From NCBI RefSeq assembly GCF_019931755.1, contig NZ_CP082918.1, forward strand, positions 1,902,001-1,966,000: DNA of 64,000 nucleotides, in the 5' to 3' direction. The DNA comes from Sutcliffiella horikoshii (GTDB taxonomy: Bacteria; Bacillota; Bacilli; Bacillales; Bacillaceae_I). A program made the position numbers and the translations under genes. Below the pieces are notes generated by a model. The model did not search any database and was not told the DNA's origin. It was given only the letters and a program-made list of their open reading frames with translations. The number at the start of each line of letters is the position of its first letter. Within the stretch, counting starts at the first letter, position 1. Below, piece after piece: positions 6,746 through 32,666 of this stretch.

Positions 6746-8779
6746 ATGGACTTAAACCAATATTTAGATATTTTTCTTGAAGAGAGCAAAGAACATTTGC
6801 AAACGATCAATAATCAGCTATTAGAGTTGGAGAAACACCCTGCCAACATTGAGATTGTTAACGAGATTTTCCGGTCTGCGCACACCCTCAAAGGTATGTC
6901 TGCCACAATGGGGTATGAAGATCTGGCCAGCCTTACTCATCAGATGGAAAACGTTCTTGATCTTATTCGCAACGAAAAATTAAATGTTACCACCAACCTG
7001 TTAGATATTGTATTTCGTTCTGTGGAATACCTGGAAGAAATGGTGCTTTCTATTTCAGAAGGTGGAGATGGAAAGAAAGACGTCAAAGAAGTGGTTTCCC
7101 TGCTTATTAAAATTGAGAAGGGGGAGGAATATTCCTTGCCCACAAACTCTGAGGAACAAAAATCTCCGGAGCATACATATGATTCCTATGAGATTACGAT
7201 ATTGCAACAATCAGAGGAACAGGGATATACACCGTATGAAGTAAATATCACACTTAGACAAGACTGTCTTTTAAAAGCAGCAAGAGTGTTTATGGTATTT
7301 GAAGTGGTAGAGGGGATGGGAGAAGTAATTAAATCAAACCCGTCTGTTGATCTACTAGAAGAAGAGAAGTTTGATAATAGTTTCCAAATTACGATGGTTT
7401 CAAAAGAAGATGTAAGTAGTATCAAAGAAAAGATAATGAAGGTATCTGAGCTTGAAAAGGTAAGTGTTAATAAGCTGGATACACAACTTCTTGCAGATTT
7501 TCAGGGTGAAAGTTCCGTAGAGGTAGCTGTAGAAGAAATAACTGCAGCACAAGTAGAAGCAGCTCCAACAACGGCAGTATTGGAAAAAAACGAAGAGAAA
7601 ACAACTCCGGTCAAAGGGACGCCGGGATCCAATAAAACGATCCGGGTCAGCATTGATCGATTAGACGGATTAATGAACTTGTTTGAAGAGCTAGTAATAG
7701 ACAGAGGCAGATTAGAACAAATCTCTAAGGATTTGAATGAGCCGGAATTAATTGAAACGGTGGAAAGAATGTCCCGAATCTCTAATGATTTACAAAATAT
7801 AATCTTAAACATGCGTATGGTCCCAATTGAAACAGTCTTTAACCGCTTCCCTAGAATGGTAAGGCAATTGGCCAGAGACCTTGGGAAAAAGGTGGACATT
7901 GAAATTATCGGGGCGGAAACAGAGCTTGATAGAACCGTGATGGATGAAATAGGAGATCCACTTGTTCATTTATTGCGCAACGCCATAGACCATGGCATTG
8001 AAATCCCAGAGATTAGAAGTCGTAATGGAAAGCCGGAAGAAGGCAAAATAACGCTAAAAGCTTATCATAGCGGAAATCATGTTTTTATTGAGATCATGGA
8101 TAATGGTGCCGGTATCTCGAAAGAAAAGGTTCTTAACAAAGCCATCAGTAAGGGTGTCATTTCTCAACAAGAAGGGGAAAGATTAAGTGAACAAGAAGTG
8201 TATCAACTTATCCTTTCTTCCGGTTTTTCCACTGCAGAAGTAATTTCTGATATATCCGGCCGCGGCGTTGGACTTGATGTGGTGAAAAACACTATAGAGT
8301 CACTGGGCGGAAAAATCACGATTGATTCTCTAGAAGGAGCAGGTACAACATTTTCCATCCAGCTACCGTTGACACTTTCCATCATCTCCGTTTTATTAAC
8401 GGAAATAGAGAACGAAAAATACGCGATACCTTTATCTTCTATTATAGAGACTGCCATTATTAAAAAAGAGGAAATCCTGACAGCACATAACCAGGAAGTC
8501 ATTGATTTCAGGGGGAAAATCGTACCTGTAGTCTACTTGGAAAAAGTATTCGATGTGCAAAAGCAACAAGTAGAACCGCCAGACTTTTATTCCCTTGTCT
8601 TGGTGAAAAAAGGTGAAAAAATTGCCGCACTAGTGGTAGATTCCTTCATAGGACAACAAGAAGTAGTACTGAAGGGGCTTGGACAATACCTGAACTCTAC
8701 CTTTGCAATCAGCGGAGCAACCATCCTCGGAGACGGCCAAGTAGCCCTAATCGTAGACTGTAACGCTTTAATTAAATAA
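6746..8779 (+). CDS. cheA: Chemotaxis histidine kinase CheA
   Basis: 677 residues in the usual five-domain order: P1 phosphotransfer domain with His46 in 'SAHTLKG', P2 response-regulator docking, P3 dimerisation, P4 ATPase ('LLRNAIDHG' N box, 'DNGAGI' and 'GRGVGLDVV' G boxes), and P5 CheW-like coupling domain. It phosphorylates CheB here and CheY elsewhere. The last ~40 codons are unusually rich in A- or C-ending codons (28 of 38 counted), a feature shared with genes next to the intergenic palindromes. Element R1 begins eight bases after the stop. Confidence 0.97.
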   Translation: MDLNQYLDIFLEESKEHLQTINNQLLELEKHPANIEIVNEIFRSAHTLKGMSATMGYEDLASLTHQMENVLDLIRNEKLNVTTNLLDIVFRSVEYLEEMVLSISEGGDGKKDVKEVVSLLIKIEKGEEYSLPTNSEEQKSPEHTYDSYEITILQQSEEQGYTPYEVNITLRQDCLLKAARVFMVFEVVEGMGEVIKSNPSVDLLEEEKFDNSFQITMVSKEDVSSIKEKIMKVSELEKVSVNKLDTQLLADFQGESSVEVAVEEITAAQVEAAPTTAVLEKNEEKTTPVKGTPGSNKTIRVSIDRLDGLMNLFEELVIDRGRLEQISKDLNEPELIETVERMSRISNDLQNIILNMRMVPIETVFNRFPRMVRQLARDLGKKVDIEIIGAETELDRTVMDEIGDPLVHLLRNAIDHGIEIPEIRSRNGKPEEGKITLKAYHSGNHVFIEIMDNGAGISKEKVLNKAISKGVISQQEGERLSEQEVYQLILSSGFSTAEVISDISGRGVGLDVVKNTIESLGGKITIDSLEGAGTTFSIQLPLTLSIISVLLTEIENEKYAIPLSSIIETAIIKKEEILTAHNQEVIDFRGKIVPVVYLEKVFDVQKQQVEPPDFYSLVLVKKGEKIAALVVDSFIGQQEVVLKGLGQYLNSTFAISGATILGDGQVALIVDCNALIK

Positions 8780-8787
8780 AGACCCTA

Positions 8788-8973
8788 GCTGTTGATTGGA
8801 GCAAAAGGCGAAGACTCCTCGAAAATGCTACGCATTTTCTTCGTGCGATGTTTCGCTGCCGAAGCCTTCCTTGTCCTGAGGGAGATAGCGCTAGGTGGAG
8901 ACCCCGCAGGCGTAGCCGAGGAGGCTCCAGCAGCGCCCCTAGGAAAGCGAAGCTATTTGCGGAAATCAACAGC
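8788..8973. repeat. Intergenic palindromic repeat R1 with nested 58 bp insertion (cheA-cheW)
   Basis: Outer arms are a perfect 10 bp inverted repeat, GCTGTTGATT / AATCAACAGC. Without an insertion at 8820-8877 it is 128 bp and nearly identical to R2 at 13919-14046. The body folds back on itself imperfectly (TGGAG against CTCCA, GCG-rich segments). It lies inside the che operon, so it is presumably transcribed. A short open frame across it is not a credible gene. MITE- or REP-like; origin unknown. Confidence 0.9.
8820..8877. repeat. 58 bp double-hairpin insertion within R1
   Basis: Absent from R2, whose flanking bases are otherwise collinear. The segment ends in TCCT, repeating the TCCT directly before it, as a short target duplication would. 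It contains a perfect hairpin GAAAATGC-tac-GCATTTTC and a second nested one, CTTCG...CGAAG enclosing GCGA-tgtt-TCGC. The boundaries are inferred from comparing R1 with R2. Confidence 0.75.
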
Positions 8974-9020
8974 GGTATCAAACGATACCATTTATTAAAT
9001 ATGAACAGGAGGTAACATTT

Positions 9021-9470
9021 ATGGAGGCAACAGAAAAGAAATTAAAGCTAATAGTATTCGAACTTCAAAAAGAAGAATACGCGATACCAGTCCAACAAGT
9101 ACGTTCCATAGAAAAACTACTGCCGATCACACGTGTTCCCAATGTCCCTCCCCATATAAAAGGAGTCATCAACCTAAGAGGAGTCATCACTCCAATCGTG
9201 GACTTGCGAACAAGATTCAACCTTGAAGAAAAAGTAAAAACAGACGCTTCCCGTATCATCATCACCGTAGTGGACGAACAGGAAGTAGGTTTTATTGTAG
9301 ATGCTGCCAATGACGTCGTCGATATCACAGAGGACCAAATAGAACCTGCTCCGGAAGTTGTAGGCTCTGTAGAGAATAAATATGTCCAAGGTGTAGTGAA
9401 AATCGACAAAAGGCTTTTCGTATGTCTAGACCTAAATGAAATCCTGCAGCTAGATCAATCCAAAGATTGA
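9021..9470 (+). CDS. cheW: Chemotaxis coupling protein CheW
   Basis: 149 residues forming one CheW domain ('VFELQKEEYAIPVQQV' at the N terminus, 'GVINLRGVITPIVDLR' in the centre). It links CheA to the receptors. Starts at ATG 9021 after AACAGGAGGTAACATTT. Of the first 50 codons, 36 end in A or C, above the window background. It follows R1 rather than abutting cheA. Confidence 0.96.
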   Translation: MEATEKKLKLIVFELQKEEYAIPVQQVRSIEKLLPITRVPNVPPHIKGVINLRGVITPIVDLRTRFNLEEKVKTDASRIIITVVDEQEVGFIVDAANDVVDITEDQIEPAPEVVGSVENKYVQGVVKIDKRLFVCLDLNEILQLDQSKD

Positions 9471-9480
9471 GGCCGTACAG

Positions 9481-10107
9481 ATGAATAATGAAGATAAATT
9501 AAACGAGTTAGATCTATTAAAAGAGTTGGGAAACATAGGGGCTGGCAATGCAGCAACCGCATTATCCCAGCTTCTTAATAAAGAGATACACATGAATGTT
9601 CCGTTAGCCAAGATTGTGTCTTTTAACGAGATGATGGACTTGATGGGAGGCTCAGACAGACCTGTCGCAGCTGTTTTTCTTAGAATGGAGGGCGAATTAT
9701 CCGGAAGCTTATTCTTTGTCCTATCACTGGATGATGCAACGAAGCTGATTAACCAACTCATTCCTGATAAGAAAATAAGTGTAGAGGAACTTCCTTCACA
9801 TGAACTAGGACTTTCCGCTTTACAAGAGCTGGGAAATATAATTTCTGCACACTATTTAACAGCACTATCTGAATGTATAGGACTTGCGGTGACACCTTCT
9901 GTACCGCAAGTCACCATTGATATGGTTGGTGCGATAGTCGTAACAGGACTTTTGGAAATCTGCCAAGTAAGCGATCACTCCATTTTCATCGACACAGAAT
10001 TGACAGAAACAACTGATAACCAGATAGAGAAGACGAAAGGCCATTTTTTCCTGATCCCCTATCCAGATTCATTTGAAAAAATATTGGCAGCGTTGGGTGA
10101 AAAATAA
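9481..10107 (+). CDS. cheC: CheY-P phosphatase CheC
   Basis: 208 residues with two copies of the CheC/CheX/FliY phosphatase signature: 'ELGNIGAGNAATAL' near residue 15 and 'ELGNIISAHYLTAL' near residue 120, each with the Glu and Asn of the active site. It dephosphorylates CheY-P and is stimulated by CheD, encoded next. Stop and start share a base with cheD (TAATG), so the two are coupled. Confidence 0.95.
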   Translation: MNNEDKLNELDLLKELGNIGAGNAATALSQLLNKEIHMNVPLAKIVSFNEMMDLMGGSDRPVAAVFLRMEGELSGSLFFVLSLDDATKLINQLIPDKKISVEELPSHELGLSALQELGNIISAHYLTALSECIGLAVTPSVPQVTIDMVGAIVVTGLLEICQVSDHSIFIDTELTETTDNQIEKTKGHFFLIPYPDSFEKILAALGEK

Positions 10108-10607
10108 TGACGAGTGTAGAATCAGTCGTTAAAGTCGGTATTGCGGAAATGGGTATAGTGAAATCTCCTCAACTGATTCGAACTGCCGGGCTTGGTTCAT
10201 GTGTAGGGGTTGTTATTTATGACACTTCTACCAAGATTGCCGGAATGGTCCATATTATGCTTCCAGATTCGAATCTGACGAGACAGGCTCCTGTCAATGC
10301 AGATAAATATGCAGATACAGGAATTCTGCATCTAGTTGACAATCTTCTTTTAAAAGGAATCAAGTCATACAGCATGAAAGCCAAAATTGCCGGCGGAGCG
10401 CAGATGTTTCAGTTCAGCAGTTCTGGAACTGACATGATGAGGATCGGACCAAGAAATGTAGAAGCGGTAAAGGAGAAGCTTGCCGCCTTACATATTCCAT
10501 TGATCAGTGAGGACTGTGGAGGAAACAATGGAAGAACCATTGAATTTAATCCTGAAAACGGGAAATTAATGATAAAAACCGTTAATAAAGGAGTATGTTA
10601 CATTTAA
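10107..10607 (+). CDS. cheD: Chemoreceptor glutamine deamidase CheD
   Basis: 166 residues. The active-site cysteine is in 'GLGSCVGVVIYD' and the conserved His in 'VHIMLPDS'. CheD deamidates receptor glutamines and binds CheC in the Bacillus adaptation system. Directly coupled to cheC. The sigD gene follows after 37 bases. Confidence 0.95.
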   Translation: MTSVESVVKVGIAEMGIVKSPQLIRTAGLGSCVGVVIYDTSTKIAGMVHIMLPDSNLTRQAPVNADKYADTGILHLVDNLLLKGIKSYSMKAKIAGGAQMFQFSSSGTDMMRIGPRNVEAVKEKLAALHIPLISEDCGGNNGRTIEFNPENGKLMIKTVNKGVCYI

Positions 10608-10644
10608 CCGCTTTCGGTCTTAGGAGTATATAAGGAGGAAAGCC

Positions 10645-11409
10645 ATGACTACTTCAACTTCAAACAAAGATTCCGCCTATTGGGATCTCTGGAAAACAAA
10701 AAAAGATCCTGACGCTGGGGACTTTCTAGTAAAAAAATATATGCCTCTAGTACATTACCATGTCCAGCGAATTGCAACCGGCCTGCCTAAAAGTGTGAAA
10801 AGGGAAGAATTGAAAAGCCTGGCATTTGTGGGACTGTTTGATGCAATTGAAAAATTTGACCCGTCACGGGATTTGAAGTTTGATACATATGCTTCTTTCA
10901 GAATAAGAGGGTCAATTATAGATGGGTTGCGAAAAGAGGACTGGCTCCCAAGAAGTGTAAGAGAAAAGGCAAAGAGAATCGAGTCCACTTTAGAAAAATT
11001 AGAACAGAAACTGATGAGGAATGCTACCCTGGAGGAAGTTGCAGCACACCTTGATATGCCGGAGGATGAAGTCTCCACCGTCATGCATGAAGTCTTTTAT
11101 TCAAACATACTGTCCATGGATGAGATGCCAAAAGAAAATGATGAACAATCGCATGGTGCATATGTTCTTAAAGATGAAAAGGTTATTTCTCCAGAAGAAG
11201 AATTAGTAAAGTCAGAACTCATTCAACTTCTAGGTGAACAGATTGAGAATCTGACGGAAAACGAACAAATTGTTATCAGCTTGTTTTATAAAGAGGAGCT
11301 TACTTTGACAGAGATTGGGCAAGTATTGGGACTTACAACATCCCGCATTTCCCAAATACATTCCAAAGCTATTTTCAAACTAAGAAAACAATTAAATCCT
11401 ATGCTGTAA
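10645..11409 (+). CDS. sigD: RNA polymerase sigma factor SigD (flagellin/motility)
   Basis: 254 residues, sigma-28 family. Region 2 includes 'LKFDTYASFRIRGSIIDGLRKEDW', and region 4 ends in a helix-turn-helix with 'LTLTEIGQVLGLTTSRISQIHSKA'. It drives late flagellar, chemotaxis and autolysin genes. The ATG follows AAGGAGGAAAGCC. Position near the end of the fla/che operon matches B. subtilis. Confidence 0.97.
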   Translation: MTTSTSNKDSAYWDLWKTKKDPDAGDFLVKKYMPLVHYHVQRIATGLPKSVKREELKSLAFVGLFDAIEKFDPSRDLKFDTYASFRIRGSIIDGLRKEDWLPRSVREKAKRIESTLEKLEQKLMRNATLEEVAAHLDMPEDEVSTVMHEVFYSNILSMDEMPKENDEQSHGAYVLKDEKVISPEEELVKSELIQLLGEQIENLTENEQIVISLFYKEELTLTEIGQVLGLTTSRISQIHSKAIFKLRKQLNPML

Positions 11410-11424
11410 CACGCTTGTATGGCC

Positions 11425-11451
11425 GCCTGCTTTCCAACCTGGACAGCAGGC
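11425..11451 (+). other. Hairpin between sigD and swrB
   Basis: Perfect 7 bp arms GCCTGCT (11425-11431) and AGCAGGC (11445-11451), with inner TCC/GGA pairing possible. There is no following T-run, so it does not look like a terminator. It may be an mRNA stability or processing structure at the 3' side of sigD. Confidence 0.5.
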
Positions 11452-11475
11452 AAATGATAAAAGGGTTGTGAAGAC

Positions 11476-11952
11476 ATGTTAATAATTTTTACTATTATAA
11501 ATTTCGCACTCATTCTTCTTGCGATTTTTTTTATTATTTTACTTTTCATCAAACTTTCCAAAGTTCAACAACTGGAACAAGAATATCGTACTTTGATTCA
11601 AGAAGCAGAGGATACCATCACAAGCTATGTATTGGAACTAAAAGAAGAAAACAGTTCCTTTTTGCAAAAACTGTCCAATGCAAATCCTGGCATCGCTCAT
11701 TTAGACAAACAAGAAAGCTTTGATACAAGGGAAGAGGAGCTTACAGAGGCAGATCTAAAGGACTTATTAATGCAAGAAAACGTCAGGGAAGATCACATAG
11801 AAACGGTGATTGCAGAGAAACCATTTGAGGAATGGAATATCAAAGATCAGGTAATGCATCTAAGTGAAAAGGGGCTTACTTCTTCTGAAATTGCCAAAAA
11901 ACTTAACAAAGGTAAAACAGAAATAGAATTGCTGTTGAAATTTCGACAATGA
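11476..11952 (+). CDS. swrB: Swarming motility protein SwrB (YlxL)
   Basis: 158 residues. One N-terminal membrane helix (residues ~2-25), an acidic coiled middle, and a C-terminal HTH-like end ('LTSSEIAKKLNKGKTEIELLLKFR'). In B. subtilis SwrB follows sigD and helps activate the flagellar export apparatus. The assignment rests on position, size and topology, since the family is weakly conserved. It is the last gene before a new promoter for rpsB. Confidence 0.8.
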   Translation: MLIIFTIINFALILLAIFFIILLFIKLSKVQQLEQEYRTLIQEAEDTITSYVLELKEENSSFLQKLSNANPGIAHLDKQESFDTREEELTEADLKDLLMQENVREDHIETVIAEKPFEEWNIKDQVMHLSEKGLTSSEIAKKLNKGKTEIELLLKFRQ

Positions 11953-11966
11953 AACCTATTTAAAAC

Positions 11967-11995
11967 TTGATTGTCAAAAGTGATTATGATATATT
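11967..11995 (+). promoter_or_regulatory. Sigma-A promoter for rpsB
   Basis: TTGATT (11967-11972), 17 bp spacer, TATATT (11990-11995). It leaves a leader of about 110 nt before rpsB, which may hold an S2-responsive structure as reported for rpsB leaders in other bacteria. I could not define the fold by eye. Confidence 0.7.
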
Positions 11996-12098
11996 TATTT
12001 TCGGTGTTATAAATTCACACGTTTGCCGATCTGAGCATTGGTGCTGATTCGTCAGTTTTGCTTGGAAATGACGTTGACGGAGGAAAAAAAACCATTAG

Positions 12099-12818
<720 letters not shown>

Positions 12819-12835
12819 TTTGATTTAAGAAAAAG

Positions 12836-12871
12836 GTGATAAGAGGGGAAAGCCTTTTATCACTTTTTTTT
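12836..12871 (+). terminator. Rho-independent terminator/attenuator after rpsB
   Basis: Stem GTGATAA...TTATCAC with inner AGG/CCT pairing, followed by eight T. It lies between rpsB and tsf and probably lowers tsf transcription relative to rpsB. Confidence 0.85.
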
Positions 12872-12928
12872 GGAAAATATGACATTCTTAATAAAAAATA
12901 CTTACATATCCTAAGGAGGAAATGAACA

Positions 12929-13810
12929 ATGGCTGTAACTGCTCAAATGGTAAAAGAATTACGTGAAAAAACTGGCGCTGGCATGATGGATTGCAAAAAA
13001 GCGTTAACGGAAACAAACGGAGACATGGAAAAAGCAATCGATTTCTTGCGTGAAAAAGGGATCGCTAAAGCTGCAAAGAAAACAGATCGTATCGCTGCTG
13101 AAGGTCTAACTGCTATCGTAACTAAAGGAAACGAAGCGGTTATCCTTGAAGTGAACTCCGAGACTGACTTCGTTGCTAAAAACGAAGGCTTCAAAACGCT
13201 TGTAAACGAATTAGGTGAATTCCTTATCTCCAACAAGCCTGAGTCTGTAGAAGCTGCTCTTGAAGCAAAAATGGACAACGGTGTTGCAGTTTCTGAGCAC
13301 ATCAACTCTGCAATTGCTAAAATCGGTGAGAAATTGACTCTTCGTCGCTACACAATCGTTACTAAAACTGACGCAGACGCATTCGGTGCATACTTGCACA
13401 TGGGCGGACGCATTGGAGTACTAACTCTTCTTGAAGGTACTACAGATGAAGCTACTGCAAAAGACGTTGCTATGCACATCGCTGCAATCAACCCTAAATA
13501 CATCTCTCGTGACGAAGTTTCTCAAGAAGAAGCAGACCGCGAGCGTAAAGTACTTACTGAACAAGCTCTAAACGAAGGCAAGCCAGAAAACATCGTAGCT
13601 AAAATGGTAGAAGGCCGTCTTGGAAAATACTTTGAAGATATCTGCCTACTAGACCAAACTTTCGTTAAGAACCCTGACATGAAAGTACGTCAATTCGTAG
13701 AAAGCAAAGGCGCTACTGTAAAATCCTTCATCCGTTACGAAGTTGGAGAAGGAATCGAAAAACGCCAAGACAACTTTGCTGAAGAAGTAATGAGCCAAGT
13801 TAAAAAATAA
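12929..13810 (+). CDS. tsf: Translation elongation factor Ts
   Basis: 293 residues. An N-terminal UBA-like domain begins '[23 protein letters not shown]', and the core contains the '[12 protein letters not shown]' region that contacts EF-Tu. It exchanges GDP for GTP on EF-Tu. Highly expressed codon pattern. ATG 12929 follows AAGGAGG. Confidence 0.98.
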
Positions 13811-13827
13811 GAGGAACAACATATATA

Positions 13828-13858
13828 AGAGGGGAACACAATTTGTGTTCCTCTTTTT
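13828..13858 (+). terminator. Rho-independent terminator after tsf
   Basis: AGAGGGGAACAC-aatt-GTGTTCCTCT followed by TTTT. A strong stem close to the tsf stop that ends the rpsB-tsf unit before R2. Confidence 0.88.
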
Positions 13859-13918
13859 AGGAAAAATATTTTATAATGATTCTGTTAAAGTTTATGTATT
13901 ATCTTTTTAAATATCCTA

Positions 13919-14046
13919 GCTGTTGATTGGAGCAAAAGGCGAAGACTCCTGAGGGAGATAGCGTTAGGTGGAGACCCCGCAGGCATAGCCGAGGAGGCTC
14001 CAGCAACGCCCCTAGGAAAGCGAAGCCGTTTGCGGAAATCAACAGC
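13919..14046. repeat. Intergenic palindromic repeat R2 (tsf-pyrH)
   Basis: 128 bp with the same perfect outer arms as R1 (GCTGTTGATT / AATCAACAGC) and an internal body differing from R1 at only a few positions apart from the R1 insertion. It lies between the tsf terminator and pyrH in the same orientation as R1. Confidence 0.92.
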
Positions 14047-14094
14047 GGAGTTTAACAGATTCGCAATCAAACCCTTTTATTAATGGAGGTTACT

Positions 14095-14817
14095 ATGGCT
14101 CAAGCTAAATATCAACGTATCGTACTAAAACTAAGCGGAGAAGCACTTGCAGGTGAACAAGGCTTCGGAATCAACCCAACTGTCATCAAATCCGTATCTC
14201 AACAAGTAAAAGAACTAACCGAACTAGGCGTAGAAGTAGCAGTTGTCGTAGGCGGCGGAAACATCTGGAGAGGTAAAGTCGGCAGTGAAATGGGTATGGA
14301 CCGTGCATCAGCAGATTACATGGGCATGCTTGCAACTGTCATGAACTCCTTAGCACTTCAAGACAGCTTGGAAAATTCCGGTGTTCAAACACGAGTTCAA
14401 ACATCTATTGAAATGCGTCAGGTTGCTGAACCTTACATTAGAAGAAAAGCGATTCGCCACTTAGAGAAAAAACGTGTAGTCATCTTCGCAGCAGGAACAG
14501 GAAACCCATACTTCTCCACAGATACTACTGCAGCATTGCGTGCAGCGGAAATCGAAGCAGACGTCATCTTGATGGCAAAGAACAATGTGGATGGAGTTTA
14601 CAGTGCAGATCCAACTATCGATGCTACTGCAACTAAGTATGATACATTATCTTATCTAGATGTATTGCGTGAAGGACTAGCTGTTATGGACTCTACTGCG
14701 TCTTCATTATGTATGGACAATGATATTCCTATCATCGTCTTCTCCATCATGGAAGAAGGGAACATTAAGCGAGTAGTATTAGGTGAAAATATCGGAACGA
14801 TTGTGAGGGGGAAATAA
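14095..14817 (+). CDS. pyrH: Uridylate kinase (UMP kinase)
   Basis: 240 residues, amino-acid-kinase fold, phosphorylates UMP to UDP. It has an N-terminal '[11 protein letters not shown]', a '[10 protein letters not shown]' glycine loop and '[15 protein letters not shown]'. The start at 14095 (MAQAKYQR) is chosen because GGAGGT lies five bases upstream; the ATG at 14083 has no site. Of the first 50 codons 40 end in A or C, against 20 of the last 38, so codon usage shifts with distance from R2. Confidence 0.96.
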
Positions 14818-14819
14818 TT

Positions 14820-15377
14820 ATGGCAAATCAAGTTATTACTCAAACAAAAGACAGAATGGAAAAAGCTGTACAAGCTTACTCCCGTGAATTGGCAACAATT
14901 CGTGCTGGACGTGCAAGTGCGGCATTACTAGATAAAGTAACAGTTGACTACTACGGGGCACCGACTCCAGTCAATCAATTGGCTTCTTTAAATGTACCTG
15001 AAGCAAGACTTCTTGTGGTACAACCTTATGATAAAACATCATTAGGTGATATTGAAAAAGCGATCATCAAAGCAGACCTCGGATTAAACCCATCCAATGA
15101 TGGTACAGTAATCCGTATTTCTATCCCTGCATTGACAGAAGAGCGCCGTAAAGATCTAGTAAAACAAATCAAGAAAATTTCTGAAGAAGCGAAAGTGGGT
15201 ATCCGCAATATTCGCCGTGATGGAAATGATGATTTGAAGAAACTAGAAAAGAACGGAGAAATCACGGAAGACGAGTTGCGCGGCTATACTGATGACATTC
15301 AGAAGCAGACTGATTCGTTCATCGCGAAGGTTGATTCCGTTACAAAAGAAAAAGAAAAAGAAATCATGGAAGTATAA
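14820..15377 (+). CDS. frr: Ribosome recycling factor
   Basis: 185 residues, full length. It has '[22 protein letters not shown]' near the N terminus and the charged coiled-coil arm. It splits post-termination ribosomes with EF-G. It starts two bases after the pyrH stop with GAGGGGGAAATAATT as ribosome site. Confidence 0.97.
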
Positions 15378-15409
15378 GCGATTTACATGTAAAATAGAAA
15401 GATGGAAAG

Positions 15410-15438
15410 ACCCTCTAATGTTTACAGGGGGTTTTTTT
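15410..15438 (+). terminator. Rho-independent terminator after frr
   Basis: ACCCTCT...AGGGGGT (one G-U) followed by seven T. Confidence 0.8.
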
Positions 15439-15507
15439 GTTAATACTGTTACTATAAATGGATAGACCCCTATAGGTACGTCTGTTTATTTTTAATGGAG
15501 GATTTTT

Positions 15508-16281: not shown

Positions 16282-16299
16282 GAAGGTGTTGGACATACA

Positions 16300-19617: not shown

Positions 19618-19646
19618 AAGTGACTCAATAATGTAATTAGAGTTTA

Positions 19647-19776
19647 CCCTGTTGACTGGAGTGCAAGGTGAGAGACTCCTGCGGGTGATAACGGTTGGTT
19701 GAGACCCCGCAACGAAGTGAGGAGGCTCAAGCATCGTCCCGCGGAAAGCGAACACCTGGAACGGAAGGAAACGGGG
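19647..19776. repeat. Intergenic palindromic repeat R3 (rseP-proS)
   Basis: 130 bp, second subfamily (begins CCCTGTTGACTGGAG). Shares the body 'GAGACTCCTG', 'TTGAGACCCCGC', 'GAGGAGGCTCAAGC' with R4 and R5. The ends pair as CCCTGTT... / ...AACGGGG. Confidence 0.9.
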
Positions 19777-19796
19777 AGTTTAATGTAAATACATAG

Positions 19797-21503
<1,707 letters not shown>

Positions 21504-24600: not shown

Positions 24601-25937
24601 TCAGGGCGGGAACCATTGGTACAGTTGCTGACAAAACCGCTTATGGTTATGTAAAAGGATATGCAAATGACCGCAATTTAATATTGCGTGGAGCTGAAGT
24701 GGACAGACTTTCAGCAGGATGTACAGGGGTAAGAAGATCGACTGGACAGCATCCAGGCGGAATTATCGTTGTTCCGGATTATATGGATATTTTTGATTTC
24801 TCCCCGATCCAGTATCCAGCAGATGATCAGTCATCAGAATGGAAAACGACACATTTTGACTTCCATTCTATTCACGATAACTTGCTTAAGCTTGATATCC
24901 TTGGACACGATGACCCGACCGTAATCAGGATGCTTCAGGACCTTAGTGGGATTGACCCAAAGACCATTCCTACAGATGATCCGTATGTGATGAAGATCTT
25001 CAGCGGAACGGAATCGCTTGGCGTTACAGAAGAACAAATCATGTGTAAAACAGGAACTCTCGGGATTCCTGAGTTTGGTACTAGGTTTGTTAGACAGATG
25101 CTTGAAGATACAAAACCGTCGACATTCTCTGAATTAGTGCAAATATCCGGATTATCTCATGGTACCGATGTTTGGCTTGGCAATGCACAAGAGCTTATCC
25201 ACAATAAGACTTGTACATTAAGTGAAGTTATCGGTTGCCGTGATGACATCATGGTATATCTAATCTATAAAGGACTTGACCCTTCCATGGCCTTTAAGAT
25301 CATGGAATCGGTTCGTAAAGGAAAAGGTCTATCCGATGAGTTTAAAGAGGAAATGATCAAAAACGATGTGCCGGCATGGTATATCGACTCCTGTTTGAAA
25401 ATAAAATACATGTTCCCGAAAGCCCATGCAGCAGCATATGTGCTTATGGCAGTTCGTATTGCATATTTCAAAGTGCACTTCCCATTAATGTACTATGCAG
25501 CGTATTTTACCGTTCGCGCCGATGACTTTGATATCGATACAATGGTTAAAGGTTCTGCAGCCATCCGTAAAGTTGTAGAAGAAATCAATGCAAAAGGCTT
25601 GGAAGCCTCACCAAAAGAAAAATCCTTACTTACAGTAATGGAACTTGCATTAGAAATGAGTGAACGAGGGTTCTCTTTCAAAAAGGTGGACTTATACAAA
25701 TCCAGCGCAACTGATTTCTTAATCGAAGGCGATTCCCTGATTCCGCCATTCAATTCCATTCCGGGACTTGGAACAAACGCAGCGATCAACATCGTGAACT
25801 CAAGAGCCGATGGAGAGTTCTTGTCCAAAGAAGACTTACAACAAAGAGGCAGAATCTCCAAAACAATCTTGGAATACCTCGACAACCACGGCTGCCTAAC
25901 AGGCCTGCCAGACCAAAACCAACTATCACTATTCTAA
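21624..25937 (+). CDS. polC: DNA polymerase III alpha subunit, Gram-positive PolC type
   Basis: Replicative polymerase. Order: N-terminal domain, OB fold (~230-330), PHP domain beginning '[15 protein letters not shown]', inserted DEDDh proofreading exonuclease ('[21 protein letters not shown]'), a zinc-type cysteine cluster ('CPSCKKSEF...CPDCGEAF'), the polymerase core with '[15 protein letters not shown]', and a C-terminal region. TTG 21624 is chosen since AAAGGGGA lies eight bases upstream and it gives 1437 residues. ATG 21600 overlaps that site, and ATG 21636 is an alternative. The last 41 codons are 90 % A/C-ending (37 counted). Confidence 0.96.
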
Positions 25938-25970
25938 TGTTTATGGGACACGACTGGTTTATTCAATCCA

Positions 25971-26100
25971 CCCTGTTGACTGAAGTGGAAGATGTGAGAC
26001 TCCTGAGGGAGATAGCGGTAGCTTGAGACCCCGCAGCGCAGCGAGGAGGCTCAAGCACCGCCCCTAGGAAAGCGAACATCTGCAACGAAAGGAAACAGGG
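25971..26100. repeat. Intergenic palindromic repeat R4 (polC-rimP)
   Basis: 130 bp of the R3 subfamily. Ends CCCTGTTGACT and AGGAAACAGGG pair except at one or two positions. It begins 33 bases after the polC stop. Confidence 0.9.
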
Positions 26101-26150
26101 AGTATTTCTGGATCTAAAAAGCCGTGAACCCCTGAAAACACTAGAAAGAT

Positions 26151-26179
26151 TTGCATATTTCATACGGATATGATATATT
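26151..26179 (+). promoter_or_regulatory. Sigma-A promoter for the rimP-nusA-infB operon
   Basis: TTGCAT (26151-26156), 17 bp spacer, TATATT (26174-26179). It gives a leader of about 230 nt before rimP containing two hairpins. Confidence 0.8.
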
Positions 26180-26213
26180 TACATTGGAAATGCTATATAC
26201 AGGTAATTAGCAG

Positions 26214-26233
26214 AGAGTGGGGAAACCCACTCT
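26214..26233 (+). ncRNA. Leader hairpin with GAAA tetraloop upstream of rimP
   Basis: Perfect 8 bp stem AGAGTGGG/CCCACTCT closed by GAAA, starting near +28 of the predicted transcript. No strong T-run follows. Likely a structured element of the operon leader. Confidence 0.6.
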
Positions 26234-26344
26234 TTCGTATTGTATTCCCATTTTTTCTGGCAACCTTGTTTTTTCATGACAATGAGAAAAAAGGGAACGT
26301 TAGATTTTCGTATCAGCTTTACATAAGCTTGCTTGTTTATGATT

Positions 26345-26371
26345 CCCTGCTTATTGGCAGGGTCTTTTGTT
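26345..26371 (+). promoter_or_regulatory. Weak terminator-like attenuator in the rimP-nusA leader
   Basis: Stem CCCTGC/GCAGGG with a six-base loop followed by an interrupted U-tract TCTTTTGTT. Weak-U intrinsic terminators are the kind made efficient by NusA. Since nusA is the second gene of this operon, feedback attenuation is plausible, but it is not shown by sequence alone. Confidence 0.55.
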
Positions 26372-26415
26372 CAGATTTTAAACACATCGTCTCGCGCTTG
26401 CGAAGGAGGAAAATG

Positions 26416-26886
26416 ATGAGCAAAAATGTTACAGAAACGGTGGAAGAACTAGCTCTTCCAATCGTAAAAGAAATGAATGTAGAATTAGTGGATATTGAAT
26501 ATGTAAAAGAAGGGTCCTCTTGGTTTTTACGTGTATTCGTCGATAAAGAAGGCGGTATCGACATCGAGGATTGCGGGACAGTAAGTGAAAAGTTAAGTGA
26601 AAAGCTTGATGAACTAGATCCGATTCCTCATAACTATTTCCTGGAAGTTTCCTCTCCTGGTGCTGAGCGCCCTCTAAAGAAGAAGGAAGACATCGAGAAA
26701 TCGGTCGGTAAATATGTCAACATTAAAACGTATGAACCTATCGACGGCTTGAAGTCCTTTGAAGGTGATCTTCTGGATTTCGATGGAGAAACAATCAAAC
26801 TCTCCATGACTATAAAAACACGTAAAAAGGAAGTTTCCATTCCATATCCAAAAGTAGCGAAAGCACGTTTGGCTGTCAGGTTCTAA
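26416..26886 (+). CDS. rimP: Ribosome maturation factor RimP (YlxS)
   Basis: 156 residues; helps 30S assembly. It has '[28 protein letters not shown]' and '[13 protein letters not shown]'. ATG 26416 is preferred over the adjacent ATG 26413 because AGGAGG lies six bases upstream. The open frame runs back to 26170, but that part is leader with promoter and hairpins. Confidence 0.95.
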
Positions 26887-26972
26887 AACGAACCAGACAA
26901 ATCAATTACACTTTGTTTAAGTAATTGGTAAAAAATTATGAATCATAGGTATTTTAAGGGGGACATGGTTGT

Positions 26973-28097
26973 ATGAGCAGCGAGTTATTTGATGCTTTAA
27001 CCCTGATGGAAAAGGAAAAGGGCATTAGCAAAGATGTAATTATTGAAGCGATAGAGGCTGCACTTATATCTGCTTACAAAAGAAACTTTAATCAAGCACA
27101 AAATGTACGAGTGGATATGAACCTGGAAACAGGTACAATGCGTGTATTTGCAAGAAAAGACGTAGTAGACGAGGTATTTGATTCCCGTCTGGAAATCTCC
27201 ATTCAGGAAGCACGTCAAATCGATCCGAACTATCAAGAAAATGATGTGGTTGAGATTGAAGTCACACCAAAGGACTTCGGTCGTATTGCAGCGCAAACAG
27301 CAAAACAAGTAGTAACTCAGAGAGTAAGAGAAGCAGAACGAGGAGTCATCTACTCTGAATATATCGAACGTGAAGAAGATATTATGACAGGGATCGTTCA
27401 ACGTTTAGACTCTAAATTCATTTATGTGAGCCTTGGTAAAATTGAGGCATTGTTGCCAGTTAATGAGCAAATGCCTAATGAACATTACAAGCCTCATGAT
27501 AGAATTAAAGTGTTCCTTACAAAAGTGGAAAAAACCACAAAAGGCCCACAAATTTTTGTTTCGCGTTCTCATCCAGGACTTTTAAAGCGCCTTTTTGAAC
27601 TTGAAGTTCCAGAAATTTATGATGGCACCGTTGAAATTAAGTCCGTTGCGCGTGAAGCTGGAGACCGTTCAAAGATTTCCGTTCACTGTGACAATCCTGA
27701 AGTAGATCCGGTAGGAGCTTGTGTTGGACCAAAAGGCCAAAGGGTGCAAGCAATTGTTAATGAATTAAAAGGAGAGAAAATTGACATCGTTCGATGGTCA
27801 AAAGATCCTGTTGAGTTCGTTGCAAATGCATTAAGTCCTTCTAAAGTACTGGAAGTTCAAGTTAATGAAGAAGAAAAGGCAACAACAGTCATCGTACCTG
27901 ATTATCAACTTTCTTTAGCAATTGGTAAACGTGGACAAAATGCGAGACTAGCTGCTAAGTTAACAGGTTGGAAAATTGACATCAAGAGTGAATCTGAAGC
28001 AGAAGAACTAGGGATTTACCCAAGTCTTTCTCTATCCAAAAACGATACAGAAGATTTGGATGATGAATTCTACGATGACGACAATTTTGAAGACTGA
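26973..28097 (+). CDS. nusA: Transcription termination/antitermination factor NusA
   Basis: 374 residues in the short Firmicutes form: N-terminal RNAP-binding domain, S1 domain (~135-200), and two KH domains ('[15 protein letters not shown]' and '[15 protein letters not shown]'). An acidic C-terminal tail replaces the AR repeats of enterobacteria. It promotes pausing and intrinsic termination. A/C-ending codons in its first 49 codons number 24, a background value used for comparison. Confidence 0.97.
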
Positions 28098-28119
28098 TTT
28101 TTAAAAGAAGGTGAATCAG

Positions 28120-28407
28120 GTGAACAATCGCAAAAAGGTCCCAATGCGCAAATGTGTGGCAAGTCAAGAACTGAAGCCGAAAAAGGAATTGATTCGTATC
28201 GTCCGTTCTAAAGAAGGCGAAGTTTCGATTGACCCTACAGGGAAAAAGTCAGGACGAGGGGCATATCTTGCAAGTAACAAGGAGAGCATCCTCCTTGCAA
28301 AAAAGAAAAACATCTTAGCCCGTCACCTGGAAGTAGCGATTGATGATTCATTGTATGATGAATTACTTCAGCTGGTAGAAACGGAGAATAACTCAACACA
28401 TGAATAA
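28120..28407 (+). CDS. rnpM: YlxR/RnpM family RNA-binding protein
   Basis: 95 residues from GTG 28120, basic, with '[24 protein letters not shown]' and '[12 protein letters not shown]' typical of the YlxR fold. In B. subtilis this protein has been described as an RNase P modulator. GTG 28120 sits about eight bases from AAGAAGGTG; GTG 28111 is part of that site. It overlaps ylxQ by eight bases. Confidence 0.9.
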
Positions 28408-28699
28408 TCAATGGCTATCCATTGTCGGTCTTGCTACAAGAGCAAGAAAGACCATAACAGGGGAAGAACTTGTCATTAAAGAAGTGAGAGCAGGAAAGGC
28501 GAAGTTGGTGCTATTGGCAAGCGACGCTTCTGCTAACACGATGAAAAAATTACAAGATAAATGTACGTACTATAACGTGCCGATCAGAACGGTTGACGAT
28601 CGGTATGAGTTAGGTCGAGCGATAGGAAAAGATGCGAGAGTTTCGGTCGCCATTCTTGATGAAGGGTTCGCCAAAAAACTACTCACCATGCTCGATTAA
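28400..28699 (+). CDS. ylxQ: YlxQ, L7Ae-family RNA-binding protein
   Basis: 99 residues with the L7Ae/L30e/S12e fold signature ('[35 protein letters not shown]'). L7Ae proteins bind kink-turn RNA; this paralogue's exact target is not certain. It starts within the end of rnpM and lies 17 bases before infB. Confidence 0.92.
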
Positions 28700-28716
28700 T
28701 CTTTGGGGGTGAATGT

Positions 28717-30873
28717 ATGACGAAATTACGCGTGTACGAATACGCAAAGCAAAAGAACGTATCAAGTAAAGATGTCATTACAAAACTAAAAGAAATGAAT
28801 ATTGAGGTATCAAACCATATGGCAACATTAGACGACGACACGATCCAAAAATTGAACGGCACAAATAAAACAGAAGCACCAAAGAAAGCAGCGCCACAAA
28901 ACACTGCTTCTGCACCTAAGAAACAAAATAATAATCAATCTCAAGGTGGCGGCCAAGGCGGAAAAGGTAAAAACACTTCTTCACCTAAAAAGCCATTTAA
29001 TAATAACAACAGCAATAACAATCATTCCTCTAAAGGGAAAAAGAAACAAAACAATAAACAAAACCAAAACCGCGGACAACAACAAGCTCCGCCACAACCT
29101 GTGAAGAAAAAAGAAACTCCTTCTAAAATCACATTCACTGGTTCCCTGACAGTTGGTGAATTGGCAAACAAGCTAAACAAAGAGCCTTCTGAAATCATCA
29201 AAAAGCTCTTGATGCTTGGTGTCATGGCGACTATCAACCAGGATCTTGATAAAGATTCCATCGAGTTGATCGCTGGCGAGTACAACGTGGAAGTGGAAGA
29301 GGAAATTATCTTCGAAGTAACCGATTTTGAAGGATACGATTCCGAAGATACAGAAGAAGTAATGGAAGAGCGTCCACCAGTTGTTACAATCATGGGTCAC
29401 GTTGACCACGGTAAAACAACACTTCTTGACTCTATCCGTAACACAAAGGTTACTGCAGGTGAAGCTGGTGGTATCACACAGCATATCGGTGCGTACCAAG
29501 TAGAAGTGGATCAAGGCAAGAAAATCACTTTTCTTGATACTCCTGGACATGCTGCGTTTACAACGATGCGTTCCCGCGGAGCACAAGTTACAGACATTAC
29601 CATTCTTGTTGTTGCAGCAGATGACGGTGTTATGCCTCAAACAGTGGAAGCAATCAACCATGCCAAAGCTGCAGAAGTACCAATCATTGTTGCGGTAAAC
29701 AAAATGGATAAAGAAGGTGCCAATCCTGACCGTGTTATGCAAGAATTAACAGAACACGGATTAGTGTCAGAAGCTTGGGGTGGAGATACTATCTTTGTAC
29801 CAATTTCTGCAATCAATGGAGAAGGCATCGATACACTTCTTGAAATGATCCTACTTGTATCTGAAGTGGAAGAATACAAAGCGAACTCTAAACGTGCGGC
29901 ATCAGGTACGGTTATTGAGGCCCAGCTTGATAAAGGCAGAGGTTCCGTTGCGACCCTTCTGGTACAAAAAGGGACGCTTCGTGTTGGAGACCCAATCGTA
30001 GTTGGTAACACATTCGGTCGTGTTCGTGCAATGGTCAACGATCTTGGACGCCGCGTGAAAGAAGCTGGTCCATCCACACCAGTTGAAATAACTGGTCTAA
30101 ATGAAGTGCCACAAGCTGGAGACAACTTCATGGTATTCTCTGATGAGAAAACGGCTCGTAACGTCGGAGAAGCCCGTGCTCAAAAGCAACTTCAAGAACA
30201 ACGCAGTGAAAAAACACGTGTAACGCTTGATGACTTGTTCGAACAAATCAAGCAGGGTGAAATGAAAGAAATCAACCTTATTGTGAAAGCAGACGTTCAA
30301 GGTTCTGTAGAAGCGATGGCTGCTTCCCTTCAGAAAATTGATGTTGAAGGCGCGAAAGTGAAAATCATTCACACTGGCGTTGGGGCTATCACAGAATCTG
30401 ATATTATCCTTGCTTCTGCATCCAATGCGATTGTTATTGGTTTCAACGTTCGCCCAGATGCTGGTGCGAAACGTACAGCAGATGTTGAAAATGTTGATAT
30501 TCGCCTTCACCGTATCATCTATAAAGCGATTGAAGAAATTGAAGCGGCAATGAAAGGTATGCTTGACCCTGAATTTGAAGAAAAAGTAATCGGTCAAGTA
30601 GAAGTTCGCCAGACATTCAAAGTTTCTAAAGTTGGTACCATTGCAGGTGCATACGTAACAGAAGGGAAAATCACTCGTGATTCCAGCATTCGTCTAATTC
30701 GTGACGGAATCGTTATTTTTGAAGGAGAACTTGATACACTCAAGCGTTTCAAAGATGATGTAAAAGAAGTGGCGACAAACTACGAATGTGGTGTAACAAT
30801 CAAGAACTTTAACGATATTAAAGAAGGCGACATCATCGAAGCTTACGTAATGCAAGAAATCGAAAGAAAATGA
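28717..30873 (+). CDS. infB: Translation initiation factor IF-2
   Basis: 718 residues. An N-terminal IF2N domain (~1-50), then a low-complexity linker rich in Asn, Gln and Lys (~50-135), a second IF2N, the GTPase domain with G227-HVDHGKT, 'DTPGH' and 'NKMD', and the C-terminal fMet-tRNA binding domains. It positions initiator tRNA. It overlaps ylxP by four bases. The Asn/Gln-rich linker differs in composition from its surroundings but is usual for IF-2. Confidence 0.98.
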
Positions 30874-31148
30874 TCGGATATTTAGAGTGTGACTGTATGA
30901 TCTATGATGCTCAATCTTTGAAGGAAAAAAGGGCAGTTCTTCAGCGCGTTATTACAAGGCTGAAACAGAGGTTCAATATTTCCATCTCAGAGATTGATCA
31001 TCAAGACGTATGGCAACGGACGAAGATTGGAATTGTATCCATCTCTTCATCCAAATCCATCACCGAGAAAGAATTGCAAAAAGTGCTCGACTATCTGGAT
31101 TCCTTTCCAGAGATAGAGCGGGCAGAAACTTCGCTTGATTGGCTTTAA
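30870..31148 (+). CDS. ylxP: YlxP, DUF503 family protein
   Basis: 92 residues with '[28 protein letters not shown]', the DUF503 signature. It is always between infB and rbfA in Bacilli, so a role around ribosome maturation is inferred; no enzymatic motif is visible. Start overlaps the infB stop (ATGA). Confidence 0.88.
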
Positions 31149-31161
31149 AGGGGTGAAAGGT

Positions 31162-31527
31162 ATGACACTCAGATCAAACAGAGTTGGAGAGCAAATGAAA
31201 AAAGAGCTTTCCGATATCATTGGTCGTAAAATCAAAGACCCTCGTGTAGGCTTTGTAACAGTAACGGATGTACAGGTTACTGGAGATCTTCAACAAGCCA
31301 AGGTTTTCATCTCTGTGCTTGGAGACGATGAGAAAAGACAAGACACTTTGATTGGTTTGGCAAAAGCTAAAGGCTTCATCCGCAGTGAAATTGGACGAAG
31401 AATTCGCTTAAGAAAAACTCCAGAGCTTTTCTTTGAATTTGACGAATCCATCGCTTACGGTAATCACATCGAGAGCCTGATTCATGAATTGAATAAAAAA
31501 GACTCTGATTCTGATGATGAAGAGTAA
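31162..31527 (+). CDS. rbfA: Ribosome-binding factor A
   Basis: 121 residues, KH-like fold, needed for 16S 5' end maturation and cold growth. Begins '[35 protein letters not shown]'. ATG 31162 follows AAAGGGGTGAAAGG; the upstream extension to 31135 overlaps ylxP and lacks a site. Confidence 0.95.
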
Positions 31528-31530
31528 AAG

Positions 31531-31566
31531 AAAAGGATAGGCAGCACTTGTCTATCCTTTTTGTTG
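31531..31566 (+). terminator. Rho-independent terminator after rbfA
   Basis: AAAAGGATAG...CTATCCTTTTTGTT. Separates rbfA from R5 and truB. Confidence 0.85.
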
Positions 31567-31591
31567 ACTCTAATGATTGCTCGCATTAACT

Positions 31592-31721
31592 CCCTGTTGA
31601 TTTGCGTTCCAGGCGTTCGCTTTCCGCGGGACGATGCTTGAGCCTCCTCACTTCGTTGCGGGGTCTCAACCAACCGTTACCCCCCGCAGGAGTCTCACAC
31701 CTTGCACTCCAATCTACAGGG
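31592..31721. repeat. Intergenic palindromic repeat R5, inverted copy (rbfA-truB)
   Basis: 130 bp. Its reverse complement aligns along its length with R3 and R4, so it lies in the opposite orientation to R1-R4. Arms CCCTGTTGATT and AATCTACAGGG pair at 10 of 11 positions. Follows the rbfA terminator and ends 33 bases before truB. Confidence 0.9.
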
Positions 31722-31754
31722 GAATACTTATTAATAATGAAAGGGGTGGCCTAA

Positions 31755-32666
31755 ATGGATGGCATTCTTATTTTAAACAAACCAAAAGGCTTCACTTCAC
31801 ATGACTGCGTATTTAAAGTGAGAAAAATACTAAAAACAAAAAAAGTCGGCCACACCGGGACACTAGATCCAGAAGTAACCGGAGTCCTTCCTATCTGCAT
31901 CGGCAGAGCTACAAAAGTCGTAGAATTCCTCACAGCAGAACAAAAAACATACGTGGCTGAAGTCACCATCGGCACCGCAACCACGACAGAAGATCAAACA
32001 GGGGAAGTAGTAGAAGAAAAACGGGTGGACAACCCCATAGCAAAAGAAAAAATACTTTCCGTCCTTCAAGAGCTTACAGGAGAAATTGACCAAACGCCGC
32101 CAATGTACTCCGCTGTTAAAATTAAAGGGAAAAAGCTTTATGAATACGCAAGAGAAGGGAAGGTAATCGACAGACCTTCAAGAAAAGTGACCATCCATGA
32201 TATTTTCCTAACAAGTGATATTACATATGAAGAACAAAAAGGCCAAGTCAAATTTTCCTTTCAAGTAAACTGCAGTAAAGGTACATATGTAAGAACCCTT
32301 GCTGTACAAATAGGCGAATTGCTTGGTTATCCTGCCCACATGTCCTATTTGACCAGAATTTCCTCTGGAGACTTTACCATCGATCAAGCAATCACTTTAG
32401 AACAATTAAGTGAGCTTGCAGAACAAGGCGGGGTCGAAGAGAAACTATTGCCGATGGAAAAAGCACTAAGTTCATTGCCTAAGTTGGAGATTAGTGATAA
32501 AGTAGCAGAGAAAGTGTATAATGGTGCGGTTTTGCCGTACCCGGAAAATATTGAAGAATCTATTGAATACTTTAGTGTATTCCATAATGATAAATGCTTG
32601 GCCATCTATATGAAACATCCATCAAAGCCAGGCCTCATGAAACCAAAGAAAGTTTTTCATGAATAA
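31755..32666 (+). CDS. truB: tRNA pseudouridine-55 synthase TruB
   Basis: 303 residues. It has 'GILILNKPKGFTSHD', the catalytic Asp in 'GHTGTLDPEVTGVLP', and a C-terminal PUA-like end. It modifies U55 of the T loop of tRNAs. Of its first 50 codons 37 end in A or C, but only 22 of the last 50. ATG 31755 follows AAAGGGGTGGCCTAA. Confidence 0.96.
   Translation: MDGILILNKPKGFTSHDCVFKVRKILKTKKVGHTGTLDPEVTGVLPICIGRATKVVEFLTAEQKTYVAEVTIGTATTTEDQTGEVVEEKRVDNPIAKEKILSVLQELTGEIDQTPPMYSAVKIKGKKLYEYAREGKVIDRPSRKVTIHDIFLTSDITYEEQKGQVKFSFQVNCSKGTYVRTLAVQIGELLGYPAHMSYLTRISSGDFTIDQAITLEQLSELAEQGGVEEKLLPMEKALSSLPKLEISDKVAEKVYNGAVLPYPENIEESIEYFSVFHNDKCLAIYMKHPSKPGLMKPKKVFHE

Follow-up and report, generated by a model that had tools for sequence, protein, structure and literature searches.

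Strand-asymmetric substitution tracts surround hairpin-forming repeats of two families in Sutcliffiella horikoshii

The stretch of DNA analysed here, hereafter the window, spans 64 kb (positions 1,902,001 to 1,966,000 of contig NZ_CP082918.1) inside the 4.5-Mb genome of Sutcliffiella horikoshii, labelled G000, and carries five members (R1 to R5) of one family of imperfect palindromes of ~130 nt, whose flanking genes are unusually rich in A and C at synonymous sites. R1 (8783..8979, + strand), in the cheA/cheW spacer, is enlarged by an insertion of ~54 nt and was recognised by its direct repeats, its sequence and a hidden Markov model (HMM) match at 8874-8975. R2 (13918..14052, +) lies in the tsf/pyrH spacer, R3 (19644..19780, +) in the rseP/proS spacer, R4 (25969..26104, +) 3' of polC and R5 (31588..31724, - strand), which is inverted, in the rbfA/truB spacer; all four are defined by direct repeats and HMM matches, to which single-stranded DNA folding is added for R2 and R3. 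There were no Rfam matches at gathering score anywhere in the window, the ~130-nt repeats included. Genome-wide, the core pattern has 157 matches and the reversed-pattern control none; being imperfect, high in copy number and mostly intergenic, the family resembles the REP/MITE-like intergenic palindromes of Bacillaceae. The ~54-nt insertion of R1, itself palindromic (8820-8873), also occurs in repeats at two other loci (L123 and L165), apparently at the same internal position, and at a third (L066) whole elements are nested in each other.

A/C-rich tracts in the window

Our main measure was the A/C fraction at third codon positions where a transition is synonymous, in genes from our own gene caller. 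The window baseline, more than 1 kb from the repeats, is 0.509 (n=15140), and among 1474 overlapping 70-site blocks away from the elements 0.14% reach 0.70 and none 0.75. At 20-300 nt from the repeats, the + strand is A/C-rich on both sides of R1, at the 3' end of cheA (8480..8779, 0.685) and the 5' end of cheW (9021..9280, 0.753), and on both sides of R2, at the 3' end of tsf (13610..13810, 0.754) and the 5' end of pyrH (14083..14350, 0.795). Further tracts lie at the 5' end of proS, right of R3 (19818..20080, 0.775), at the 3' end of polC, left of R4 (25670..25937, 0.764, with 0.88 in the last 50 codons), and at the 5' end of truB, right of R5 (31755..32025, 0.793). The right flank of R4 offers zero sites, and the left flanks of R3 and R5 are at 0.53 and 0.532.

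The excess had first been described in a sequence-only reading, from hand counts. We recounted 13 of its 16 segments (asd, rimP and rnjB being excluded), and all agree within 3 codons: cheW 36/50, pyrH 37/50 (40 by hand), proS 38/50, truB 37/50, the last 38 codons of cheA 28 and the last 41 of polC 37, with six control segments at 0.46-0.55 (for example 21 of the last 38 codons of pyrH). The controls include the upstream sides of R3 (rseP, 26/49) and R5 (rbfA, 13/28), which lack the skew as had been stated. The A/C skew beside the repeats is real. The start of infB (gene at 28717-30873), described by hand count as intermediate at 33, again gave 33/50; since this start is at 0.66-0.70 in all 11 of the genomes compared, with or without elements, as is the end of the gene at 0.63-0.73, its A/C richness is gene-specific.

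Two intergenic arrays of 52-nt tandem repeats (39145-39560 and 44767-45078, with 6 and 5 register copies) also lie in the window; the genes flanking them have no clear A/C skew.

Distance, strand and orientation

With at least 150 repeat places known in G000, 95 stretches around those outside the window were analysed together with it, 1.09 Mb in total; this in-depth scan covers one genome, and its simple standard errors are optimistic owing to linked sites and shared ancestry. It holds 224 HMM matches to the ~130-nt repeat, which group into 158 clusters: 106 of single orientation and 52 inverted pairs. These copies reproduce the window profile, and the proposed dependence of the skew on distance to the repeats is thus upheld genome-wide. 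In genes of the same orientation as the element, the A/C fraction at 60-120 nt is 0.714 downstream (n=826) and 0.764 upstream (n=1173), falling to about 0.50 beyond 700 nt and standing at 0.50 at 3-5 kb, while in genes of opposite orientation it descends to 0.42. The skew is strongest at ~60-200 nt and gone by 500-700 nt. Purine and pyrimidine sites move together, with A reaching up to 0.87 of purines and C up to 0.71 of pyrimidines, and extreme 50-site windows make up 27% (n=451) of those within 250 nt of an element versus 0.8% (n=4793) of those more than 2 kb away.

Could ordinary codon usage, expression or gene-end effects account for these tracts? The start of infB, A/C-rich irrespective of elements, shows that a gene end can be so by itself. 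However, starts and ends of genes at 282 ordinary spacers, all more than 1.2 kb from any repeat (242 without a hairpin and 40 with an ordinary one), are flat at 0.43-0.53, and a codon- or mRNA-level cause was likewise rejected, given that antisense genes and intergenic stretches keep to the DNA strand; we consider this explanation scarcely credible.

That the skew is a property of a DNA strand, as had been proposed, is borne out by the two flanks of each element: the DNA strand of their skews correlates overall (r=0.75, n=90) and still does so where the neighbouring genes converge (r=0.56, n=24, permutation p=0.0025) or where the elements form inverted pairs (r=0.51, n=31). The further claim that it ignores the orientation of the element did not survive: in a regression on the 90 clusters that offer 30 or more sites on both flanks, element orientation is the main predictor (0.114+-0.015), the two neighbouring genes contributing 0.025+-0.017 and 0.038+-0.014 and the replichore -0.013+-0.015. 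This null replichore term led us to reject a replication-strand cause. On the two sides of the element, the A/C fraction on the element strand is 0.65/0.67 in tandem same-sense contexts (49 clusters), 0.59/0.62 in convergent contexts (12 clusters, the antisense gene being at 0.72-0.96 in 5 and at 0.39-0.58 in the rest) and 0.54/0.56 in tandem antisense contexts (9 clusters, including R5 at 0.21/0.49); at L066 an antisense gene reaches 0.96. Inverted pairs average 0.43-0.53 on the + strand. The tract therefore follows the DNA strand and chiefly the orientation of the element, not gene direction or replichore; both flanks of the ~130-nt repeat gain A/C on one and the same DNA strand, for the most part that of the element. 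The 52 inverted '-+' pairs in G000 are mostly spaced by ~215 nt, and the strands of their flanking skews agree despite the symmetry of the pair.

Two outgroup species (loci L131 and L132) lack elements at the R2, R4 and R5 sites and also lack the skew there: pyrH is at 0.50/0.44, the end of polC at 0.42/0.55 and truB at 0.54/0.53, versus 0.77, 0.88 and 0.75 in the species of the window. Polarised against L131 and L132 in a six-member ingroup, the changes toward A/C and toward G/T number 14 and 0 in pyrH 1-300, 14 and 2 in proS 1-300, and 8 and 4 in truB 1-300; farther in they are about equal (13/13 in the rest of pyrH, 9/10 in proS 301-600, 26/24 beyond, 13/12 in the rest of truB). The end of polC is at 0.59 and 0.60 in two loci without R4 (L130 and L138), at 0.64 in L165, which has it, and at 0.74-0.88 in the others; relative to L130 and L138, 15 of 18 G/T sites and 11 of 30 A/C sites in its last 250 positions have changed. 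At the R3 and R5 sites the elements face opposite ways in different relatives (that of the R5 site is in + orientation in L130, L133 and L138) while proS and truB are skewed throughout, which is how R5 came to mislead the earlier view of orientation. At R2, element-plus-spacer alleles are shuffled among strains, out of the order of PolC similarity. For these reasons the tract seems to outlive the copy of the element that it surrounds. In the genomes G001 to G004, whose stretches include orthologues of the window, same-orientation genes are also skewed (0.54-0.75 at 60-300 nt); antisense genes follow the element strand in G002 (0.49-0.78, few sites), and in a further genome, G009, both sense (0.56-0.64) and antisense genes (0.53-0.63) do so.

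A second hairpin family and its Y1 transposase

A shorter hairpin, GGGTCAGACCC, is present in 83 copies in G000 (reversed control: 0). We examined 48 of its clusters, and the analysed set is the 37 that lie outside the transposase region described below (L207) with no ~130-nt repeat within 1.2 kb. Here the footprint is mirrored: on each side A/C favours the strand that runs into the hairpin, so that the tract changes strand there. On the strand so favoured, the A/C fraction at 60-100, 100-150 and 150-200 nt is 0.78/0.81/0.72 in genes pointing toward the hairpin, 0.70/0.73/0.67 in genes pointing away and 0.62/0.61/0.56 in intergenic DNA, which thus follows; the nearest 30-60 nt are weaker, 0.54 is reached at 200-300 nt, the skew being gone by ~300 nt, and the baseline lies beyond 400 nt.

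The genome's only Y1_Tnp match (PF01797, 54.7 bits, cut-off 23) is a transposase gene at C1:4030734-4031327. Its product scores 77.5 bits against the NCBIfam equivalog NF047646 (RAYT/TnpA-REP class 2), narrowly below the cut-off of 80, and for this reason we label it RAYT/TIRYT-like. Its translation holds YIHLNP, an instance of the Y---NP motif that, according to the excerpted text of PMC6006769, marks class 2 RAYTs. That paper also reports TIRYT repeats as carrying GGGG[AT][CG]A[CG], a pattern present in the hairpin GGGGTCAGACCCC ~135 nt upstream of the gene; no flanking pair of TIRYT-type inverted repeats at both gene ends was found within 150 nt of it, and on the side away from GGGGTCAGACCCC an exact GGGTCAGACCC copy first appears ~1.7 kb away. 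The coding strand of L207 is A/C-rich over several kb (0.88 in the transposase gene), without mirroring, the same strand being A/C-rich on both sides of the gene.

In 16 genomes of the genus, the copy number of GGGTCAGACCC tracks this transposase. The 11 genomes with a relative of at least 89% identity (one split) hold 80-100 copies, those with relatives of 64% and 61% hold 15 and 9, and those with 38%, 37% and no relative hold 1, 0 and 0; no copy occurs in the 80 loci around polC (L127-L206). The ~130-nt repeat is not confined in this manner: G009, whose sole relative of the transposase is at 38%, has 70 cores, and 12 and 14 cores are present in G016, where the transposase has no match, and in G018, which has no cognate transposase.

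Several further observations concern this region and protein. In G000, 22 of the 83 GGGTCAGACCC copies lie within ~97 kb around the transposase gene (C1:4023034-4120089). The minus strand of a gene at L207:1682-2218, a weak match to a lipoprotein model, and of the intergenic DNA at 1300-1660 is very A/C-rich (0.80-0.96 in codons), and a further GGGGTCAGACCCC copy lies ~640 nt away. L208, L209 and L210 (genomes G004, G007 and G002) carry a second Y1 transposase, which shares 36-37% identity with the first and whose L210 copy is A/C-rich as well.

Substitution rates and the origin of the tracts

Rates were obtained from 85 aligned genes, with tip counts that reuse the same sites up to three times; forward denotes change toward A/C on the A/C strand (G-to-A, T-to-C), reverse the opposite transition, and gene-end controls lie more than 1 kb from elements. 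Near the ~130-nt repeats, on the tips of G000-G002, the forward rate is 46/654 (0.070) versus 441/6744 (0.065) in controls, while the reverse rate is about halved, at 55/1613 (0.034) versus 495/7643 (0.065), and transversions are at 0.028 in both. Since the split from G003/G004, forward changes stand at 0.374 (control 0.295) and reverse changes at 0.133 (control 0.278), so that the forward rate is raised 1.08-fold at the tips and about 1.3-fold over the longer interval. In ggt, which adjoins the transposase gene, the tips give 34/145 forward (0.234), 51/591 reverse (0.086) and 28/736 transversions (0.038), versus 0.096, 0.082 and 0.041 in the middles of genes: forward transitions are up ~2.4-fold and reverse ones unchanged.

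These numbers bear first on the explanation offered by the sequence-only reading, in which the opposite strand would be exposed as single-stranded DNA near the hairpin and there deaminated (C to T, A to G), miscopied or repaired with errors, a situation paralleled by the mitochondrial heavy strand. The direction of change matches, and ggt fits; the ~130-nt repeats do not, and simple deamination or hypermutation is unsupported there because the forward rate is near normal and the reverse rate halved. Cytosine deamination is moreover expected to dominate over adenine deamination, yet at four-fold sites near these elements the two transition classes shift about equally (A/G +0.86, C/T +0.74 log units). 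Beside GGGTCAGACCC hairpins the composition is mixed evidence, C/T dominating in genes that point toward the hairpin (A/G +0.41, C/T +1.79) and not in those that point away (A/G -0.63, C/T -0.87, read on the coding strand), so contexts differ in how the two classes are balanced. We judge this explanation quite unlikely.

Alternatively, selection might keep rival structures out of the strand that has to form the hairpin, be it as single-stranded DNA or as RNA; since A/C-rich stretches do not self-pair, G-to-A and T-to-C would be favoured on that strand. An unchanged forward and a halved reverse rate are the pattern of a fixation bias, the equal shift of both transition classes agrees with it, and R2 and R3 (the only 2 of the 224 matches that were folded) fold better on the element strand, at -35.1 versus -29.3 kcal/mol and -23.9 versus -16.7 kcal/mol on the + and - strands. 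For the ~130-nt repeat such selection explains the data about as well as the strand-asymmetric processing proposed below. However, a given strand beside a symmetric hairpin changes from A/C-rich to G/T-rich across it, an arrangement that would make pairing of the flanks easier; the forward excess at ggt is left unexplained, some antisense genes become strongly G/T-rich (as at L066), adjacent spacers respond weakly, and selection at some hundred loci has no evident reason. A test on the purine fraction of four-fold sites, comparing a transitions-only model with four-state selection, gave 0.532 at the elements, between the model values of 0.511 and 0.558, and 0.435 at the hairpins, which fits neither. 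We hold structural selection to be unlikely.

A fixation bias could also arise by strand-biased gene conversion, if recombination were frequent at polymorphic elements and heteroduplex repair favoured A/C on one strand, and the R2 alleles that depart from the PolC order would fit this. Tree-incompatible transversion patterns are, however, not in excess near elements (65/151 within 300 nt versus 612/1479 beyond 1 kb, p=0.73); a recombination hotspot was rejected on this ground, and such conversion seems to us very unlikely.

The best reading, to which we give about an even chance of being right, is strand-asymmetric processing of DNA at the folded hairpins, with an enzyme and a chemistry that we infer. 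The Y1/HuH transposase, at its own hairpins, and perhaps a hairpin nuclease of the host, at the ~130-nt repeats, would time and again introduce a nick or gap into one strand of the folded hairpin. Resynthesis and mismatch correction would then treat the two strands unequally across the adjoining few hundred bases, so that transitions arising through G.T mispairs would persist in one strand and be erased from the other, yielding G-to-A and T-to-C on the strand that becomes A/C-rich. At a symmetric hairpin, synthesis running outward from nicks, with G.T mispairs retained in the new strand, would give the mirrored pattern, whereas at an asymmetric repeat a gap in one strand spanning the repeat would place A/C on one strand throughout. 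A lowered reverse rate would follow from mismatch repair directed by nicks; what is visible is a suppressed opposite change at the ~130-nt repeats and an excess of forward change at ggt. According to the excerpted text of PMC8266576, HuH enzymes cut single-stranded REPs to leave a 5'-phosphotyrosine and a 3'-OH able to prime synthesis. The hairpin of the transposase folds equally well on both strands (-18.0 and -18.3 kcal/mol); an asymmetric hairpin with a same-strand footprint and a symmetric one with a mirrored footprint are suggestive of, and compatible with, a process acting on the folded strand.

A number of observations weigh against such processing. (i) Genes pointing away from 14 single '+' GGGTCAGACCC hairpins are without effect (0.43-0.55), although those pointing away from 13 single '-' hairpins have it (0.71-0.86). 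(ii) The ~130-nt repeats and the skew are both present in G009, which has only the 38% relative of the transposase, and for these repeats the idea that the skew needs the transposase failed. (iii) Orientation has its exceptions (R5, L119 at 3767892, L124 at 4150367 and L064 at 1429346), the antisense gene is strongly G/T-coding in only 5 of the 12 convergent clusters, and antisense genes in G001 and G004 run the opposite way (0.28-0.48), which we attribute to flipped copies. (iv) L132 has an 87.7-bit element 279 nt upstream of proS, yet proS is at 0.43 there; L131 has a weak match (34.7 bits) 149 nt upstream, yet proS is at 0.58; and L130, without the R2 element, keeps the skew (0.73). (v) Spacers adjoining the ~130-nt repeats are skewed only a little (0.524-0.535), which does not correlate with how skewed the third positions are at each locus, and in a first intergenic test mid-spacers near these repeats showed almost no effect (0.506-0.509 versus 0.494). 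(vi) The forward excess is that of ggt only: the transposase gene itself (forward 5/40, reverse 15/370, transversions 10/410) has a lowered reverse rate, closer to the pattern of the ~130-nt repeats. A stricter ancestral rule lowers most tip rates near elements in both directions, and in G004 the forward rate more than the reverse (0.045 versus 0.123 far from elements, and 0.104 versus 0.140); we tentatively attribute this drop to conditioning and element turnover. (vii) No A/C excess was seen at 32 REPs in 11 clusters of E. coli K-12 (five 50-kb stretches) nor at 10 one-orientation clusters of the ~130-nt repeat in other Bacillaceae genera (mean -0.04+-0.017), so that the footprint seems to need something present in this genus. 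(viii) We infer the nick, the enzyme and the mismatch step alike.

The tracts have partial counterparts elsewhere. In the mutation gradients of mitochondrial DNA one strand is enriched in G/T and the other in A/C, as here. The present tracts differ in that most extend over a few hundred bases around a repeat, whose orientation or symmetry sets them, and in that the forward rate beside the ~130-nt repeats is scarcely elevated. Substitution clusters associated with repeats and indels likewise involve altered substitution patterns near repeats, but the excerpted text on them (PMC3114760) mentions no strand-directed composition tract. To RAYT/TIRYT systems (TnpA-REP, Y1 HuH) the present one is linked by its sole Y1_Tnp match adjoining a GGGGTCAGACCCC hairpin and by the copy number of GGGTCAGACCC; it differs in its strand-asymmetric footprint, which is unmentioned in the excerpts on the known systems and absent from the E. 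coli REPs. Among the open-licence PMC papers listed, at the level of titles and the beginnings of abstracts, we found no report of a strand-biased base footprint at hairpin repeats.

Taken more broadly, and tentatively, since we put it at somewhat less than an even chance, the folded mobile hairpins of this genus may be fixed points of strand-specific DNA turnover, at which a nuclease repeatedly opens one strand and the adjoining few hundred bases are then rewritten unidirectionally by repair or resynthesis, each copy imprinting a tract shaped by the symmetry of its hairpin and the transposase locus being the most active. If this is true, the tract would let one read off which DNA strand living bacteria process at hairpins, and would offer a genomic assay for the activity of RAYT/TIRYT proteins or hairpin nucleases. 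It also suggests that mobile hairpins can bias the codon choice of their neighbours with no selection acting on the genes themselves, and apparently, next to the transposase, the composition of the encoded proteins too, which bears on models of codon usage and on molecular clocks.

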